A DNA stretch of 64,000 bases from Tautonia plasticadhaerens (GTDB lineage: Bacteria > Planctomycetota > Planctomycetia > Isosphaerales > Isosphaeraceae). Numbering within the stretch: position 1 is the first letter of the stretch; every line of letters begins with the position of its first letter. Below the pieces are notes generated by a model. The model was not told where the DNA came from. It made no database searches and was given only the letters and a program-made list of their open reading frames with translations. The position numbers were made by a program, and so were the translations under genes. The stretch covers positions 7,626,001 through 7,690,000 of the forward strand of contig NZ_CP036426.1 in NCBI RefSeq assembly GCF_007752535.1. Reading direction: 5' to 3'. Shown piece after piece: positions 50,222-57,402 of the stretch.

Positions 50222-50697
50222 GGCCTCGGCCTCCGTGCCCCCCCGATCGTCCGGACCCCGGGCGAGGGAGCCTACCCGACCGGGCGATTCCGGGCCAGAT
50301 CACTCGGGATGGGGGTCTCATCTCGGGTCGACTCGATGCGAGGTCGTCGGGGTCCCGGGGTGGCCGGGCTCGGGCCGACCCCGGCCACCCCAGGGGCCGG
50401 CGTTCCCCTCAAGTCGTCTCCAGGACCGGGTCTCCGGGGGATTGGCTTCGATTCGAAACCCTCGCCGGGCCGGGTCCGTCGGGCCGGTCGGCCGGGGGTC
50501 GAGTGGGGTCGATCGGAGCCCATCGGGGGCCGCCCGGCGGGCCCGGGGGAGGGCCCGGGGACGCCCGGCGCGGAGGATCCCCGAGGACGGGCCCGGAGGG
50601 GACCTGTCGGGGCGATCGGGTCGGGGCGGGATCGGGTGCGGCTCGGGGCGGATCGATCGGGGAGGCGGCCGATCGCCGAGGGCTCCGGGGCGGGCCC
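50222..50697. other. 476-nt intergenic region with REP-like hairpin
   Basis: No gene. Contains the 12-bp hairpin at 50357-50391; the rest is GC-rich. Confidence 0.55.
50357..50391. repeat. REP-like hairpin GGGGTGGCCGGG
   Basis: Perfect 12-bp arms (50357-50368 and 50380-50391), loop 11 nt. Shares the GTGGCCGG edge with the palindrome at 46038-46071. Confidence 0.65.
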
Positions 50698-51885
50698 TCA
50701 GGAGCGTCGGGCGGCGGCGGCCAGGGCACGCCGGGCCCGCCGGTTGTTCGGCGTCGAGCGATCCCGGAGGCGGTCGGCGATCGAGGCCGGGGCCGTCGTC
50801 GGGAGCGTCGGGGACGCGACCCGGACCCGGCCCGGCTCCGAGACCATCGGCGCCGGGCTCGGGCTCGGGCTCGGCGTCCGGTTCGGGTTGGGGCTGGGGT
50901 TCGGGCTGGGATTCGGGCTCGGGGTCGGGTCGGGAGAGGTGGACGCGGGGGCCGATCGGGGCTCGGGGATGACGGTCGCCGGTGTCGGCCGGGGCCACCG
51001 GGCCGTTCGGTCGGGGCGGGGGCCGGGGGGGCCATCGGGGGTCGGCCTCGTGGAGGCGGGGGCCGACGGGGACGGGGCCCGGGCGGCCTCGGCCTGGAGC
51101 CGTCGCAGCTCGTCGCGGTTGCGGGCGACCTGGCGGCGGGCGTCGGCCGCGTAGCGTTCCAGCAGGCGGACCTCGGGCGACCGATCGGGGTCGAGCCCGG
51201 CCTCGGCGGCCTCGCGGTGGCGGGCGTCCCGGGCGTCGAGGTAGCCCTCCAGCCGGGCCTTGAGCGCCTCGACGCCGTCTCGGGCCAGCTCCAGGCCGGG
51301 CCCGGCGGTGCCGTCGGCCGGGTCCAGGTCCCAGGGGCCCGAGTGCCGACGGCCCTCGACCGGCACGCCCAGCAGGTCCAGGGCGAGGAACCAGACCTCC
51401 GGCGTCCACCCGTCGAGCCGGGCCACCTCGGCGGCCACGTCCCCCCAGCGCTCGACCAGCCAGAGGACGCCGTGCCTCGACTGCAAGAGCTTCGGCTGGA
51501 TGACCTCCGGGGCGTCGGCCAGCCTGGCGGCCAGGGCGGCGACCTCGGCCGACCGGTCGTCGTCCCAGCTCTCGGCGGCCCGCTCGGCCGCCTCGGCCCG
51601 GGCGGCGAGGATGCGACACCTGCAGGCGTCGAGCCGGACCGACTCGGCGCAGAACTGCTCGAAATGCCACTGCTGGGCCTCCCCGACCGGCCGATACGCC
51701 CCCTTCCAGGCGGCCATCCGATCGGCGATGGCCTTCGCCATCAACGCCGGTGGCGTGCTCGGCAGCCGGGACAGCCCGTGCGAGGTGGCGTTGCGGGAGG
51801 CCCGCTGCTTCCCCCCCGCCGACCGGGGCCCGGTGGACTTGAGGCTGTTGATCCGGTTGGCGATCGTCTGCTTCAGGCTGGCCAT
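50698..51885 (-). CDS. Hypothetical protein with low-complexity C-terminus
   Basis: A 395-aa protein. Its N-terminus (NRINSLKSTGPRSAGGKQRA, SRNATSHGL) matches the 'STGPRT.EGK..SRNA..HGL' lead of a family of unknown function common in planctomycetes and other soil bacteria. Residues 60-260 are helical (EAQQWHFEQFCAESVRLDAC, LLERYAADARRQVARNRDEL). Residues about 265-370 are Pro/Ser/Thr-rich with repeated PNPSPNPS units that come from a short tandem DNA repeat (50850-50940). The start at 51885 (MASLKQ) fits the family; a longer frame reaches 51942. Confidence 0.68.
   Translation of the reverse strand: MASLKQTIANRINSLKSTGPRSAGGKQRASRNATSHGLSRLPSTPPALMAKAIADRMAAWKGAYRPVGEAQQWHFEQFCAESVRLDACRCRILAARAEAAERAAESWDDDRSAEVAALAARLADAPEVIQPKLLQSRHGVLWLVERWGDVAAEVARLDGWTPEVWFLALDLLGVPVEGRRHSGPWDLDPADGTAGPGLELARDGVEALKARLEGYLDARDARHREAAEAGLDPDRSPEVRLLERYAADARRQVARNRDELRRLQAEAARAPSPSAPASTRPTPDGPPGPRPDRTARWPRPTPATVIPEPRSAPASTSPDPTPSPNPSPNPSPNPNRTPSPSPSPAPMVSEPGRVRVASPTLPTTAPASIADRLRDRSTPNNRRARRALAAAARRS
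50850..50940. repeat. TCGGG/TTCGGGCTGGG short tandem repeats inside a gene
   Basis: Repeated TTCGGG, CTCGGG and CTGGGG hexamer-like units that encode the Pro/Ser repeats of the overlying protein; prone to length variation. Confidence 0.65.
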
Positions 51886-52271
51886 GGTGCGGGTCCAGGA
51901 TGGGGGCTCGGGGTTCGGCCTGGGGATCGGCGCGCCAGGCACACGAGCCCCATACCCTTAACCATCGAGGAAATCGCCGGCCGTAGTCACTTTTCCCGGA
52001 CAATCGGCGCAGGCCGAGAGACGCGACCTCGCCGGTCGGTGTCGTGTCGTCCGGTGGCATTGGGACCTTTCCCCGCGGATCGGGGCATCCCCAGGCGGGG
52101 TTGCCGGGGGTGCGGCGGCCGTGGACCTGGGGCGAGCGCCGGGCGATGATACAGCCGATCACGGCCGAATCCGTCGAATCATCGAGGATCCGGCCGCTCA
52201 CCCAAGATCGATCCGAGGTGATCGAATCCCCTCAGACACTCCAGGCAACCAGGAGACCCGGGAGGTAATCG
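51886..52271. other. 386-nt intergenic region, nothing recognised
   Basis: Contains a less GC-rich stretch (51955-52010) that probably includes the promoter of the minus-strand gene, and a region before 52272 serving the small membrane peptide. Confidence 0.45.
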
Positions 52272-52433
52272 ATGTTCGAGCCCGTCATCGCGGTGGCCAT
52301 CATCCTCGCGGTCGTTTCGCTGTGGAGCGTCTCGCAATCGCTCGAACGGATCGCGAAGGATCTCCGGATCATCGCGGGCCGCGACGACTCGAAGCCACAG
52401 GCCGAGGATCCGGAAGAACTCGCCGACGCCTGA
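52272..52433 (+). CDS. 53-aa single-helix membrane peptide
   Basis: A 53-residue peptide, MFEPVIAVAIILAVVSLWSV then SQSLERIAKDLRIIAG and an acidic tail ending in ELADA. One membrane helix (about residues 4-22) followed by an amphipathic helix. GGGAGGT ribosome binding site 7 nt before ATG 52272 strongly supports expression. No family is recognised; the layout (helix plus charged cytoplasmic tail) is typical of small membrane regulators. Confidence 0.65.
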   Translation: MFEPVIAVAIILAVVSLWSVSQSLERIAKDLRIIAGRDDSKPQAEDPEELADA

Positions 52434-52487
52434 CCTCGCGCCCAGCAGGCCCGGCCCGCCGCAGCGACGGTGGCGGGCGACCCGGGA

Positions 52488-53114
52488 TCAGGCCCGTCGC
52501 CCCGCCCTTCGGGAGAGCCGGCCCGCCGCCAGGACGGCCGGCAGGGCGAGCAGCGCGAGGCTCGACGGCTCGGGGATGGCGGTCGAGGCGGTGAAGGTCG
52601 CCGGCCCTTCCAGCGAGGACACGGTGATCGGGCCGAGCGTCGTCGCGATCCCGTTGAAGGCGGCGAACAGGATCGGGGCCGGGTCGACCACCGGCCCGAA
52701 CGGGCCCGTGAGGTCGAAGGAGGAGAAGCCCGGATCCTCGACATCGATGAGGTCGGAGATCGTCGACAGGTCGGGCACCCGACCGAGGGAGAACCCGGCC
52801 CCCTGCCTGGTCTGGTTGACGAAGACGAGCATCTCCTCGTCGATCGTGCCGGAGCCCACGCCCTCGATCGAGATGGAGGCGACGAGGGCCTGCACGGCGA
52901 AGACGACGTCGTCCCCGTTCGGGCCCACCCCGTCGATCCGGGTCACGTCGTCGGCGTCCGCGAGGACCTCGATCACGAAGCTCGAGTCGTCGAACGGGTT
53001 GCCGGCGACGGAGCCGCTGGCGAGGCCCGAGATCGAATACGTGACGGTCGCCGAAACCGCCGAGTCCGAGACGAACAGCGTCAGCGCCAGGGCGATCGGG
53101 AGCGATCGGGCCAT
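52488..53114 (-). CDS. PEP-CTERM sorted exported protein
   Basis: A 208-aa exported protein. An N-terminal signal peptide (RSLPIALALTLFVSDSAVSA) is followed by a beta-rich region beginning ATVTYSISGLASGSVAG. The C-terminus has the PEP-CTERM sorting signal: IPEPSSLALLALPAVLAAGR then basic LSRRAGRRA. Such proteins are processed by exosortase and anchored or released at the surface. Gly/Ser/Asp-rich middle, no enzyme motif. GGAGGAC ribosome binding site before ATG 53114. Confidence 0.85.
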   Translation of the reverse strand: MARSLPIALALTLFVSDSAVSATVTYSISGLASGSVAGNPFDDSSFVIEVLADADDVTRIDGVGPNGDDVVFAVQALVASISIEGVGSGTIDEEMLVFVNQTRQGAGFSLGRVPDLSTISDLIDVEDPGFSSFDLTGPFGPVVDPAPILFAAFNGIATTLGPITVSSLEGPATFTASTAIPEPSSLALLALPAVLAAGRLSRRAGRRA

Positions 53115-53420
53115 GATCCTGTCCTCCTGGGAGTCGGGCACTCCGCCCGCAAACGCCCCGGCACGGCCGGGTCGCCCCGACACCCTAATGGGCCCGACCG
53201 CCTTGGGCAACCAGCAATGGCACCGACGTTGTCGTCATGCAACGCCCCGCGGGTGGCCCGGACACCGTCCGCGGTGTCCGGGTCGCGAAGCGACACGAGG
53301 CGGTCGGAGGGGTCGGCCCGGAGGACGCCCCTCGCTCGTCCACGGCCCTCTTGCGGCTGCGCCGCCCGGTACCGGGGACGGTGTCGGGGCCACCCGCGAA
53401 GATCGGATGTTCCTTGGATA
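53115..53420. other. Intergenic region with inverted repeat pair
   Basis: 306 nt between the PEP-CTERM gene start and the SNIPE-like gene stop, largely occupied by the inverted repeat pair at 53248-53398. Confidence 0.6.
53248..53398. repeat. Inverted pair of 35-nt hairpin repeats downstream of SNIPE-like gene
   Basis: Unit 1 (53248-53282) starts CGCGGGTGGCCC and contains a perfect 11-bp hairpin CCCGGACACCG / CGGTGTCCGGG (53257-53282). Unit 2 (53365-53398) is its near-complement in opposite orientation, about 30 of 35 positions matching by eye. The pair, 82 nt apart, is BIME-like and may end the nuclease transcript. Confidence 0.65.
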
Positions 53421-55172
53421 TCAGGGTAGAGCTTCTACCTCCCCTTCTTCCTCGATGATGCTGTCATCTTCCTCCTCATCCCCGAGGACAGCACTCTGCT
53501 CCAGTGCCGCCTGCTCTTCAAGCCATTTACTCCTGAGCTGGGGATCATCTCGCATGGCGTTTTCGAGTGTGAGTGTCTCCTTGTACTCCCTAGCCTCCGC
53601 TGTCAATGTCCACCTCGCTTGGAGGCCCATCTCGTCGAGAGCTGCTTTGATGGCGTGAATCCCGACTCGGAAGAACTCCTTCCGCCGATTAACTTTGTTA
53701 ACCTGCATCGGGAGAAACTTCCTGTGGAGCGAAGCCTCAAGGGCTGGGGCATCCTCCGAATAGATCATCGCATGGACATCGAAACCGAATGGGACAGAGG
53801 CGTTGCCGAGTTCTCGGACCCGGTCCATGGGCTCCAGTCTCCGGGTGAGCCCGATCTTGAAGACGTCGCCTCCAAACGATCCAGGATTCGATATTATGTA
53901 CACATGCCCACATTTTGTCTGCTGAGCCATGGATACGGCCCTTCTATTCTTCTCTTCCGCATCCGCGAGCTTCGCGCTTAGTTCATTGAGTCGAGCCTCG
54001 TACACTCCCTTCTCTTCAATGGTCGCATGCTCGAATTCGAGTCTGGCCTGCTCCAGTGCCCTTGATAGAAGCTCCTCGTCCCGACGTGCCTGCTTGAGTG
54101 CCCGTTCGAGTTCCTTCCTCGCCTTCTCCTCCTCGCGAACCTGCTCCCTGATGGCCCGCTGCTCCTCGCGTTGCTTGTCCTTTAATCGCTGGATGGCTAC
54201 GGCCCACTTGTATTCGTCGAGCCTGGATTCGAGGAACTCCCCGTGGATTCTCGCCCCCTTGAACACGTTTCCATTATGGTTTACCAGCGAGAACACATCT
54301 TTAATTTCCTGGATCTGCTTCCCTTGGTTGGAAGGCTTGACCCGTGACAGGATGGAGTCAACCTTGCCGTTGAAGGCGCTGAGGACGAAGTTGATCGCGT
54401 AGTCTCGCTTCCACCCCGGCGGATAGTTGCAATCGGCGGCCTCGCCGCTCTCCTCCATGATCCTGGTGCGTTGCCTGGCCAGTTTCAAGCGCTCGCCGGC
54501 TTTGTGGAATCCGAATTCATCAGCGAGTTCGTCAAGAAGATGGGAAGCCGGTACCGCATACGTGCCCAGATAGCCGTCCACCGTATTCTTGTATGCTTGT
54601 ACCGTATCCGCATAATGGTCATGAAGCCGAAGTGACTCATATGCTTTGTCGGCAATCGCCTCAGCCCGCTTATCAGCCATCATCCTGATCTCGGCCGCAT
54701 AATCTACGGCCAAAGCCAACGTCTCCTCGACCTTTCGGGTCTTCTCCTTGGCCTCCTTCCTCGCCTCGCGGGTGATTTCCTTTGCCTTGGATTCGGCTTC
54801 TTCGAGGAGTGCTGCGGATTGGGCCTTTGTGACTCGGAGAGACTCTTTGGCGCCAGCCGCCATTCCCTCCGCCTCGCGGGTTAGCTCTTGCATCCGAGTC
54901 GCCGCACGTTCTTCCGCTCCGGCGATCAGTTGGTCGGCCCGAACTTGGGCAGCTTTCATCTTAGCTTCGGCACGAGCTTTCAACTGCTTACATTTTTTAA
55001 TTATATTTGGTATATTTCTTATCCGATCTAGCTCTGTCAGTTCCTGTCGCATTGCCTCCTGTTCTTTATTGAGGCGTGCGATCATAGTCTCGAGGTCTTG
55101 CTTCTTTAGCATTCCATAGAGACCGAACGCGATCGAAGCGAGAGAAACCAACCCAAGAAGTGCGTACAACAT
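53421..55172 (-). CDS. SNIPE-like membrane nuclease: DUF4041 plus GIY-YIG (Mug113)
   Basis: A 583-aa protein. Residues 1-22 are a transmembrane anchor (LYALLGLVSLASIAFGLYGM); residues about 25-195 form a long Lys/Glu/Ala-rich coiled coil; about 200-360 is DUF4041 (ERLKLARQRTRIM, AADCNYPPGWKRDYAINFVL, SAFNGKVDSIL, FLESRLDEYKWAVAIQRLKD); another coiled coil follows; 420-505 is the T5orf172/Mug113 GIY-YIG nuclease: V424-Y425-I426, K439-I440-G441, Arg453, Glu479 and N495...KEFF. This is the domain set of SNIPE, reported in E. coli as a membrane nuclease that cuts phage DNA during injection (established knowledge; homology inferred here). GAGGGG ribosome binding site 8 nt before ATG 55172. DNA is clearly AT-richer than all neighbours, which suggests transfer. 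Confidence 0.88.
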   Translation of the reverse strand: MLYALLGLVSLASIAFGLYGMLKKQDLETMIARLNKEQEAMRQELTELDRIRNIPNIIKKCKQLKARAEAKMKAAQVRADQLIAGAEERAATRMQELTREAEGMAAGAKESLRVTKAQSAALLEEAESKAKEITREARKEAKEKTRKVEETLALAVDYAAEIRMMADKRAEAIADKAYESLRLHDHYADTVQAYKNTVDGYLGTYAVPASHLLDELADEFGFHKAGERLKLARQRTRIMEESGEAADCNYPPGWKRDYAINFVLSAFNGKVDSILSRVKPSNQGKQIQEIKDVFSLVNHNGNVFKGARIHGEFLESRLDEYKWAVAIQRLKDKQREEQRAIREQVREEEKARKELERALKQARRDEELLSRALEQARLEFEHATIEEKGVYEARLNELSAKLADAEEKNRRAVSMAQQTKCGHVYIISNPGSFGGDVFKIGLTRRLEPMDRVRELGNASVPFGFDVHAMIYSEDAPALEASLHRKFLPMQVNKVNRRKEFFRVGIHAIKAALDEMGLQARWTLTAEAREYKETLTLENAMRDDPQLRSKWLEEQAALEQSAVLGDEEEDDSIIEEEGEVEALP

Positions 55173-55260
55173 AATTGTTACCCCTCTTTGCAATGACGTC
55201 GAGCACTCCAGTGCAATTTCAAACTAGCCCATGCATCCAGACAACAAATCGGCAGGGTGG

Positions 55261-55343
55261 CACTGGCGAGGAGTCTTGATCTGGGTGCCACTGGCTCCTT
55301 CAGTGCCGAGTGGACGCAGACACTGGCGGAGCCAGTGGCACCC
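55261..55343. repeat. 16-bp inverted repeat element upstream of SNIPE-like gene
   Basis: Perfect arms beginning GGGTGCCACTGGCTCC at 55283-55298 and the complement at 55328-55343, 29 nt apart. CACTGGCG also occurs directly at 55261 and 55321, and GTGGCAC/CAGTGCC fragments continue to about 55400. MITE-like palindromic element. Confidence 0.7.
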
Positions 55344-55447
55344 TGTGTGGGTGGCACTTGTCGGTGGCCGACTCTGGGGGCATGCCACCAATGGCACCCT
55401 CCACGCGTGTGAGTCGTTCGCGCGATCCGGGATGAGTGACCCCCGAT

Positions 55448-56077
55448 TCAGGGCTCCAGGACGCGGTAGCGCTCGCCGAAGAAGGGGCGGCCCTCGATGC
55501 GGAACTTGTTGGCGAAGTTGGTCTGGAGTTGCCAGGCGTCGCCGGATTCGACGCGGGACTCGTCGATGGGCTCGAAGGCGGGGTGGGGGGTCAGCAGGTC
55601 GAGGATCTCGCGGAAGTACTCCTCCACGTCGGTCATCACCCGCAGCTCGCCGCCGAGCTTGACGACCTTCGAGGCGCGGTCGACGAACCGGGCGTTGACG
55701 ACCCGGCGCTTGCGGTGCCGCTTCTTCCACCAGGGGTCGGGGAAGTAGACGTGCAGGATCTCGACCGAGCGGTCGGGCACGAAGTCGTCGAGGAACTTCT
55801 GGGCGTCGCCGGCCACGACCCGGACGTTGTCGAGCCCCGCCTTGACGGCCCTCGCCGCCGAGATGATCGCGTATTTCTTCGCCAGCTCGACGCCGACGAA
55901 GTTGGTCCCCGGCTGCTCGGCCCCGGCGTGGGCGAGGAAGACGCCCTTGCCGGGGCCGACCTCCAGCTCGACGGGGCGGTCGTCGCCGAAGAACTCGGGC
56001 CAGCGCAGCGGGGGGGTCAGGTCGTCCAGCAGGGAGAACGTCCCCGTCGTGTCGACGAGGGATCGGCGTCGGGGCAT
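55448..56077 (-). CDS. trmB: tRNA (guanine-N7-)-methyltransferase
   Basis: A 209-aa SAM-dependent enzyme that makes m7G46 in tRNA. The SAM site is VELEVGPGKGVFLAHAG, followed by TNFVGVELAKKYAIISA, VRVVAGDAQKFL and the TrmB signature HVYFPDPWWKKRHRKRRVV with the catalytic Asp; the C-terminal DVEEYFREILDLLTPHPAF and EGRPFFGERYRVLEP are also standard. The start MPRRRS at 56077 matches the family; a longer frame to 56164 is low complexity. Confidence 0.93.
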   Translation of the reverse strand: MPRRRSLVDTTGTFSLLDDLTPPLRWPEFFGDDRPVELEVGPGKGVFLAHAGAEQPGTNFVGVELAKKYAIISAARAVKAGLDNVRVVAGDAQKFLDDFVPDRSVEILHVYFPDPWWKKRHRKRRVVNARFVDRASKVVKLGGELRVMTDVEEYFREILDLLTPHPAFEPIDESRVESGDAWQLQTNFANKFRIEGRPFFGERYRVLEP

Positions 56078-56181: not shown

Positions 56182-57402
56182 CAGGGCCGTTTCATTCTCA
56201 TCTTGGAGTTGACAGGAGTTCGATTGCCTCCTCGGGGTGACAGACGTAATGCCTCGTCGCGGCGGCCGCGTTCCGATGGCCCGACCGGCCCAGGCAGAAG
56301 ATGATCACGTTGCGCGGGATCGCCATGACTTGGGCCGAGCCGCCCCTGCGGATCCGGCTGGCGTCCTCGCGGGACGTCCCGTCGCGGACGCCGTGCAGCC
56401 CGTTCTCGATCCCCCGGTGGGCCCGCGTCAGCCGGAGCAGTTCCGCCGCGTCGGCCCGCTCGGGGCCCAGGCTGGTGATCCCCAGGACCACCTCGGCCTC
56501 GACCTTCCCGCCCACCTTGCGGACCCGTCTCAGCCGGAAGACCCGCACGCGGCCCGGCCAGTCCGAGCCGAGGTACTCCCCGAGCGCGGCGGTCACCTCG
56601 ATCGACCGCTCCTCGATCCGCCCATGCCCCTTGTCGATCTGGCGGGCCCGCTCGAATCCGGCCTCACGACGGGCGGCCTGCCGGGGGGGAAAGCCCGGGC
56701 GGGGGCCCGGCGAAGGCGGCCTCGATGGCGCGGGCCAGCGTCGGCTGGTTCTCCTTGACCGGCAGGACGTAGTCGCCGCCCCGCGCCACGATCGCCTGAC
56801 AGACGTCGCGGCGCGTGAACATCGCGTCGGCGGTGACGACCGTGCCGGACAGCGGCAGCACCCCCAGCAGCTCCAGGGCGGCCTTGTGCTCGTTGGTCTT
56901 GGCGTCGACCCGCAACCGGGCCAGCACCGCCCGGGCCCGCGGGGCGTAGGCGGCGACCAGGTGGGCCCCGGGGGCCGCCCCGTCGCGGCTGCCCCGGGCG
57001 GCCTTGCCGTCCAGGGCGATGTGCTCGGCCGCCTCGTCGGGCCCCAGCCGGCCGCGGATCCAGCCGGCGACCCGGGCCTCGAAGTCGGCCGCGTCGATGC
57101 GGCGGAAGACGCGCGAGTAGGTGGCCTTGCAGAGGCCCTTGCGGGTGGTGAAGCCGAGCTGCTGCAGGAAGTCCCAGCCGCGTTGCTTGCCGTGCTGGAC
57201 GATGGCCTCGTAGCCGGCCATGCCGGCGAGCATGGCGACGACGGCCAGGGCGAGCAGGGCGGGCAGCGGATGACGCGTGCCCCGGCGCCGACGCGGATCA
57301 GGGATGTCCTGAAGGAGTTCCATCAGCGGGGGCTGGGCTTCCATGCCTGGGTCCTGATGAGGCGGCCTCCCGATGTCATCGGCCACACCGGATGGATATA
57401 AC
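56182..57402. mobile_element. ISAs1-family insertion sequence, frameshifted
   Basis: The element carries one ISAs1 (H-repeat-associated type) transposase gene in two frames. The left end beginning CAGGGCCGTTTCATTC at 56182 looks like a terminal inverted repeat; the right end near 57380-57402 (GATGGATATAACC, then CCGGCCGGTC) is only partly complementary, so the right boundary is uncertain. A target duplication was not identified. Confidence 0.72.
56198..57344 (-). pseudogene. ISAs1-type DDE transposase, +1 frameshift
   Basis: N-terminal part: MELLQDIPDPRRRRGTRHPL, MLAGMAGYEAIVQHGKQRGW, then EHIALDGKAARGSRDG with the first catalytic Asp, and VTADAMFTRRDVCQAIVARG with the second. The frame is lost at a run of seven C (minus strand; seven G near 56683-56689 on the plus strand). 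The C-terminal part in the other frame continues AARREAGFERARQIDKGHGR, RVRVFRLRRVRKVGGKVEAE, LRLTRAHRGIENGLHGVRDG (with the Glu-containing helix) and closes with NVIIFCLGRSGHRNAAAATR. With six C the reading would be continuous, so a one-base insertion inactivated it, unless it is a sequencing error. Confidence 0.85.

Follow-up and report, generated by a model that had tools for sequence, protein, structure and literature searches.

Does a lone, AT-rich gene of a planctomycete encode a membrane-anchored nuclease that cuts phage genomes as they enter the cell? The question is raised by a gene at 53421–55172 (minus strand) of a 64,000-nucleotide stretch of the Tautonia plasticadhaerens genome (hereafter, the window), which a preliminary description had likened to SNIPE. 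SNIPE, the new name of PD-lambda-1, is a proven defence protein of E. coli that cuts phage DNA during cell entry (PMC13190303). The host strain, ElP, belongs to the Isosphaeraceae and has a reported genome of 9,395,224 bp, made up of an 8.67-Mb chromosome plus five plasmids (PMC7716859); the assembly used here has the same total of 9,395,224 bases, divided among six contigs of which the first is 8,668,938 bases long.

Domain architecture of the encoded protein

The gene is a single open frame of 583 codons that starts with ATG at 55172, with AGAGGGG a short way ahead of it. Six aligned relatives from the Isosphaeraceae (one of them, L061, trimmed by hand to that residue) begin at the Met matching this ATG, and a longer frame starting with TTG at 55193 is therefore unlikely. 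In Pfam searches, three families scored above their cut-offs, namely DUF4041 (PF13250; 5.3e-10; 39.5 bits versus a cut-off of 27; residues 262–317), MUG113 (PF13455; 8.1e-15; residues 438–514), and T5orf172 (PF10544; 6e-14; residues 422–515). The PADLOC model PD-Lambda-1 (PDLC03977) matched at 1e-104, with the best stretch pairing residues 259–549 with model positions 194–484 of 496, and phrog_1847 of PHROGs matched at 2.2e-111. An NCBIfam search of the 583-residue protein gave no match above a cut-off, and a MutS2 match (0.0025) was discarded as far under its own.

The preliminary description had proposed that one gene combines a membrane anchor, coiled coils, DUF4041, and a GIY-YIG/Mug113 nuclease, and this arrangement was recovered from the Pfam matches, the hydropathy profile, and an AlphaFold2 model. 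The predicted N-terminal anchor (residues 1–23; 55104–55172) has a hydrophobic core at residues 2–18 with a mean Kyte–Doolittle value of 2.12, a figure of hydropathy rather than of a trained predictor, and is spanned by a model helix of residues 2–52; the following Lys24–Lys25 agrees, at the level of sequence, with the positive-inside rule, by which the N terminus would lie outside and the nuclease in the cytoplasm. The same hydrophobic segment is present in the six aligned Isosphaeraceae relatives. Among SNIPE homologues, a membrane segment inside the first 70 residues has been reported for 59% plus 7% (PMC13190303), and by hydropathy and the model helix the window protein has one too. The anchor is followed by a coiled-coil stalk (residues about 24–199; 54576–55103; model helices 2–52, 57–173, and 180–199, in accord with the alignment) and the DUF4041 region (residues about 208–330; 54183–54551), in which the model places helices at 210–219, 224–241, 254–275, 280–304, and from 311 on. 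The GIY-YIG (MUG113/T5orf172) nuclease domain occupies residues 422–515 (53628–53909) and contains the invariant residues Y425, G441, R451, E479, and N492. The chain ends in an acidic tail, with a net charge of −11 over the last 25 residues (53424–53498). With the frame at full length and the invariant nuclease residues and tail in place, the gene appears from its sequence to be intact.

Kinship with E. coli SNIPE and distribution of the family

As the reference we used the 500-residue PD-lambda-1 protein XSB42081.1 of phage PhiR26_1 (record PV340555.1), which was taken as E. coli SNIPE because all nine residues named in the published work (E223, N250, L253, W257, E264, K305, I308, T319, and E414; PMC13190303) are in place. 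In BLASTP, residues 257–538 of the window protein aligned with SNIPE 193–474 at 45% identity (129 of 284 columns). In a tree of 173 proteins (quick search, SH-aLRT support only, midpoint root), the two fell on separate branches, each with support of 94: branch A with 126 rows from many phyla, including the window protein, and branch B with 43 rows, including E. coli SNIPE; four rows lay outside both. Comparison of profiles built from 88 branch-A and 37 branch-B sequences with hhalign gave 100% probability (E-value, 1.2e-100) over window residues 184–546, with low confidence before about residue 225.

The AlphaFold2 models of the window protein and SNIPE had mean pLDDT values of 83.9 and 83.8, and low pTM values of 0.56 and 0.48, as would be expected of model rods with an uncertain bend. 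The DUF4041 helices of the two models (224–241 and 146–165, 254–275 and 185–212, and 280–304 and 219–236, respectively) are followed by two long helices and then by the strands and helices of the nuclease, in equal order in both when lists of elements, not coordinates, are compared. Solved structures gave no sequence match at an E-value of 0.1 and no Foldseek match in the PDB at 0.001 or better, the long helices making this search noisy; among viral predicted structures, the best match (4.7e-17) was a phage protein named Helicase, followed mostly by T5orf172 proteins over about 100–200 columns. The SNIPE architecture put forward at the outset is thus supported by PADLOC, Pfam, the profile–profile comparison, and the matching predicted models, and so is the membership of the window protein in the family.

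Both proteins are encoded by a solitary gene and run from an N-terminal anchor through a coiled coil, DUF4041, and a long helix to a GIY-YIG nuclease with the same catalytic Glu. They differ in length (583 and 500 residues), in the longest stalk helix of the models (117 residues in the window protein and 85 in SNIPE), in two short helices (180–199 and 210–219) that the window protein has in addition ahead of DUF4041, in the further C-terminal helix and acidic tail behind its nuclease, and in branch and host, that of the window protein being without ManZ. The length of the N-terminal region has been reported to differ widely across 474 SNIPE homologues (PMC13190303), so the long stalk is within the known variety of the family.

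The catalytic residues had been described as R453 and E479. The latter was confirmed: E479 aligns with the catalytic Glu of SNIPE, E414, and is invariant in all 88 branch-A and all 37 branch-B rows. The Arg had to be renumbered, because position 453 varies (Arg in 41 and Lys in 41 of 88 branch-A proteins), whereas R451, aligned with R386 of E. coli SNIPE, is invariant in the same 88 and 37 rows. Judged by the alignment, the catalytic Arg is most likely R451, which we take to be the counterpart of the catalytic Arg in other GIY-YIG enzymes. Altogether, Y425, G441, R444, R445, R451, E479, and N492 are invariant in the 88 branch-A rows. On the W257R-type change of SNIPE, which the window protein might share, the two alignments disagree: W257 is paired with W323 by BLASTP and with K322 by hhalign, residue 322 being Lys or Arg in 77 of 88 branch-A rows.

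Relatives were matched in 12 of 58 related genomes (own genome excluded), 11 of them among the 36 of the same family, and in 24 of 391 other genomes drawn from the whole phylum, with three candidates scored per genome. Relatives of the SNIPE family are encoded by 481 of the 557 candidates on viral contigs and by at least 575 of the 594 candidates among the matches listed on genome contigs; the best 80 from each source were kept, and those of them that entered the tree belong to branch A. A comparable hydrophobic N-terminal segment was found in 154 of these 160 relatives, a count that leans upward, as hydropathy was taken into account in choosing the starts and the viral copies include many that are near-identical; of the six without it, three begin at or near a contig end, and the other three have shortened frames beginning with TTG or GTG. 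Matching records comprise 186 plasmids and 37 phages, none covering 80% of the query. The family is known, widespread, and recently explained, and the window protein is a well-formed, ordinary member of it.

The closest comparison with phage-borne proteins of phrog_1847 and branch A is offered by UNI73750.1 (Klebsiella phage KP12 record; 50.8% identity) and XAI96619.1 (Synechococcus phage Ssp-JY37; 53.2%), aligned from residue 152 to 537 or 536. Both have a hydrophobic N terminus and the same nuclease as the window protein, and differ from it in being phage-carried, in the stalk, and in having no acidic tail. The KP12 gene lies at an accessory position between repressor and integrase genes in a P2-like part of the record, and the branch-B copy of the lambda-like PhiR26_1 is likewise at an accessory position. 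The KP12 record (L034) is assigned by taxonomy to the Vequintavirinae, while its SNIPE relative is flanked by P2-like temperate genes, integrase, and repressor; it may be a mixed record.

Rows from the Isosphaeraceae form one clade of ten with support of 99. The other copies of the family (e.g., in G003, G004, and G011) are 49–58% identical to the window protein, mostly near full length, and encoded by genes standing alone, in chromosomal contexts other than that of the window gene. The extended coiled coil and acidic tail pointed out in the preliminary description are real and occur in most of these copies. Over their last 30 residues, 8 of 11 Isosphaeraceae proteins carry a net charge of −8 to −12, and the other three have −7, +4 (an odd extension), and −2 (a frame ending inside the nuclease); a charge of −8 is reached in 18 of 116 other branch-A rows and in 0 of 43 branch-B rows. 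The tail is therefore stronger in the Isosphaeraceae copies, yet not limited to them. In G019, the frame of the relative (L064, 6204–7973) has an in-frame TGA in the stalk part.

Genomic setting and probable acquisition

The gene had been described as far AT-richer than its neighbours, and its GC content is indeed 0.549 against 0.719 for the whole window, and its GC3 0.64 against 0.93–0.98 in seven neighbours. Comparison with three genomes of the same genus revealed a 5.16-kb block (50303–55457), absent from all three, that holds the SNIPE gene, a protein gene at 52488–53114, and a high-copy gene. Between the end of the DUF374 gene and the trmB match, G003, G001, and G002 have 92, 194, and 16 nt, where the window has 5,218, 5,221, and 5,155 nt, respectively. 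G001 and G002 contain no SNIPE match anywhere at an E-value of 1e-10, and relatives thus do not all carry the gene in the same place with host-like composition. Because its GC3 is foreign and the block is missing in three congeners, the SNIPE gene was probably acquired, as had been suggested; loss in three congeners would probably be less economical than gain, depending on the order in which they branched. SNIPE is alone among the genes of the block in its foreign codon use (the two other genes have a GC3 of 0.95, and the outer neighbours 0.93–0.98), and for this reason the block is probably layered. Low GC is not general among Isosphaeraceae copies, as that of G003 (0.626) equals its own flanks.

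This G003 gene lies elsewhere in its genome, and its product is 57% identical to the window protein, compared with 83% for TrmB, a sequence difference easier to reconcile with separate acquisition than with descent. Several other pairs are more similar in SNIPE than in TrmB (e.g., 74 versus 60 in G020/G021), and over 45 pairs, which are not independent of one another, the two identities rise together weakly (Spearman, 0.35). Other sites are less clear. Where G011 has its SNIPE site of 2,768 nt, the congener G028 has 446 nt, partly very AT-rich, which is not a clean empty site; the very AT-rich stretch of G028 lies at L318, 1600–1800. The SNIPE genes of G026 and G035 match at 89%, and the searched flanks of G026 had no match on the 6.5-kb G035 contig holding the gene, a weak comparison as G035 is fragmented; the gene adjoining SNIPE in G026 matched a different contig of that fragmented assembly. 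In G009, the G026 locus had no match. A search for a target-site duplication yielded nothing beyond matches of 7 bp between the block edges and 6 bp between the gene edges, either of which may be due to chance.

The palindromic elements said to bracket the gene do exist on both sides, but their reading as marks of its acquisition is not supported. The right-hand palindrome (55283–55343), found by inverted-repeat search and genome comparison, is one of a set dispersed in the genus; it has 15 matches in G000 with up to three mismatches, against 9 for a reversed control, so that weak matches are partly chance, and paired copies recur 36–37 nt apart in the own genome and in congeners. The paired element may belong to a REP-like family. 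Downstream of the gene, a 28-nt inverted repeat with arms 95 nt apart (53248–53398) occurs once more at another place in G000 and once in G003. As the right-hand one belongs to the dispersed set and the left-hand one recurs elsewhere, the palindromes provide no evidence for a SNIPE element of which they would be the ends.

Upstream on the same strand are trmB, a 3-dehydroquinate-synthase-like gene, and a fumarylacetoacetate-hydrolase-like gene. A transposase gene with DDE_Tnp_1 domains (56664–57386, minus strand), presumably of the ISAs1 type, is accompanied by a short frame without a Pfam match that resembles a broken-off end (56198–57386 together), and this stretch is also missing from the three congeners. 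The protein encoded at 52488–53114 had no Pfam match, and its end reads like what we take to be a PEP-CTERM signal. The gene at 50698–51942 (minus strand) encodes a 414-residue protein of a high-copy family, with 20 matches in its own genome (counting the gene itself; one of the others is 90% identical) and 6, 21, and 20 in three congeners, and without a Pfam or PADLOC match. Among the nine window neighbours, no phage gene was found with Pfam, and no credible PADLOC partner or other defence gene; the sole hit, of mad2 on TrmB, was read as a shared methyltransferase fold. In rough gene calls at nine Isosphaeraceae loci, any one neighbour was seen at two of them at most, and distant paralogues (three pairs, 28–33% identity) lie some kb away; the flanks share short matches of 12–23 nt, none convincing. 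The single-gene organisation claimed for the locus is therefore supported across these neighbours.

Proposed function and alternative readings

Observed at this locus are the SNIPE domains and catalytic residues, the match in predicted architecture, and a solitary, probably acquired gene in a host in which no ManZ was found. We consider it very probable that the gene encodes an anti-phage nuclease of the SNIPE family that is anchored in the membrane and cuts the phage genome at entry. Its N-terminal helix would anchor the protein in the inner (cytoplasmic) membrane with the remainder in the cytoplasm, the coiled-coil stalk would keep DUF4041 and the GIY-YIG nuclease close to the membrane, DUF4041 would contact DNA as well as the injection machinery of the phage (tape measure protein), and the phage genome would be cleaved by the nuclease as it enters. 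Tethering of the enzyme at the membrane would, we propose, spare self DNA. The membrane location, tape-measure contact, DNA cutting, and phage defence are those that we infer from E. coli SNIPE (PMC13190303).

A search of 40 genomes, own included, found no ManZ (PF03613), while in a control set of 14 named genomes three were positive: E. coli, B. subtilis, and L. lactis. This absence speaks against ManYZ as the partner here, and defence, if any, must proceed without it. It does not weaken membership in the family, because SNIPE is able to defend without ManYZ, which is accessory in E. coli (PMC13190303). A PD-Lambda-1 homologue of Streptococcus thermophilus also blocks phages, although of two homologues 98.5% identical there, one was highly active and one had no activity (PMC12322248). 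In the literature searched, we found no experiment on the window protein, on a planctomycete homologue, or on any branch-A protein, and no paper on SNIPE in planctomycetes; the string "planctomycet" has 0 occurrences in the main text of PMC13190303.

The same chemistry may have had a different owner, the window copy being a left-over or domesticated prophage gene for a phage-borne superinfection-exclusion factor. The many relatives on viral contigs, of which those of the best 80 in the tree are all branch A, and the accessory positions of copies in the temperate-phage records of PhiR26_1 and KP12 would suit such an origin; the lack of a Pfam phage gene among the nine neighbours and the separate clade of the Isosphaeraceae copies tell against it, and we regard it as rather unlikely. 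That the enzyme is instead a solitary, selfish gene of the homing type, spreading by cutting empty sites and without a role in defence, seems very improbable: both in the window and in G011 relative to G028, the gene appears as an insert standing alone, with no mobility genes recognised as belonging to it, but the contexts of the nine copies differ without a convincing common flank sequence, the membrane anchor would hold the enzyme off the chromosome, and the E. coli protein has a proven role in defence (PMC13190303).

A non-functional remnant of an acquired defence gene is also improbable. The foreign codon use points to a short period of selection in the host, and the G019 copy is interrupted by its TGA; the window frame is nevertheless of full length and retains the acidic tail along with those nuclease residues that are invariant. 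As an elaboration of the anti-phage reading, it is conceivable, and we offer it only tentatively, that the proteins of the Isosphaeraceae form a SNIPE lineage specific to this family, in which the longer stalk and acidic tail serve as its own adapter, replacing the ManYZ contact and tuning the enzyme to planctomycete envelopes or phages, and that the gene spreads by itself from one chromosomal site to another with no mobility gene belonging to it.

The anti-phage reading would place a defence strategy acting on injection at the membrane in a cultured planctomycete. A host in which no ManZ was found would provide a natural test of whether SNIPE acts chiefly via the phage tape measure protein, and the genus includes genomes both with and without the gene.
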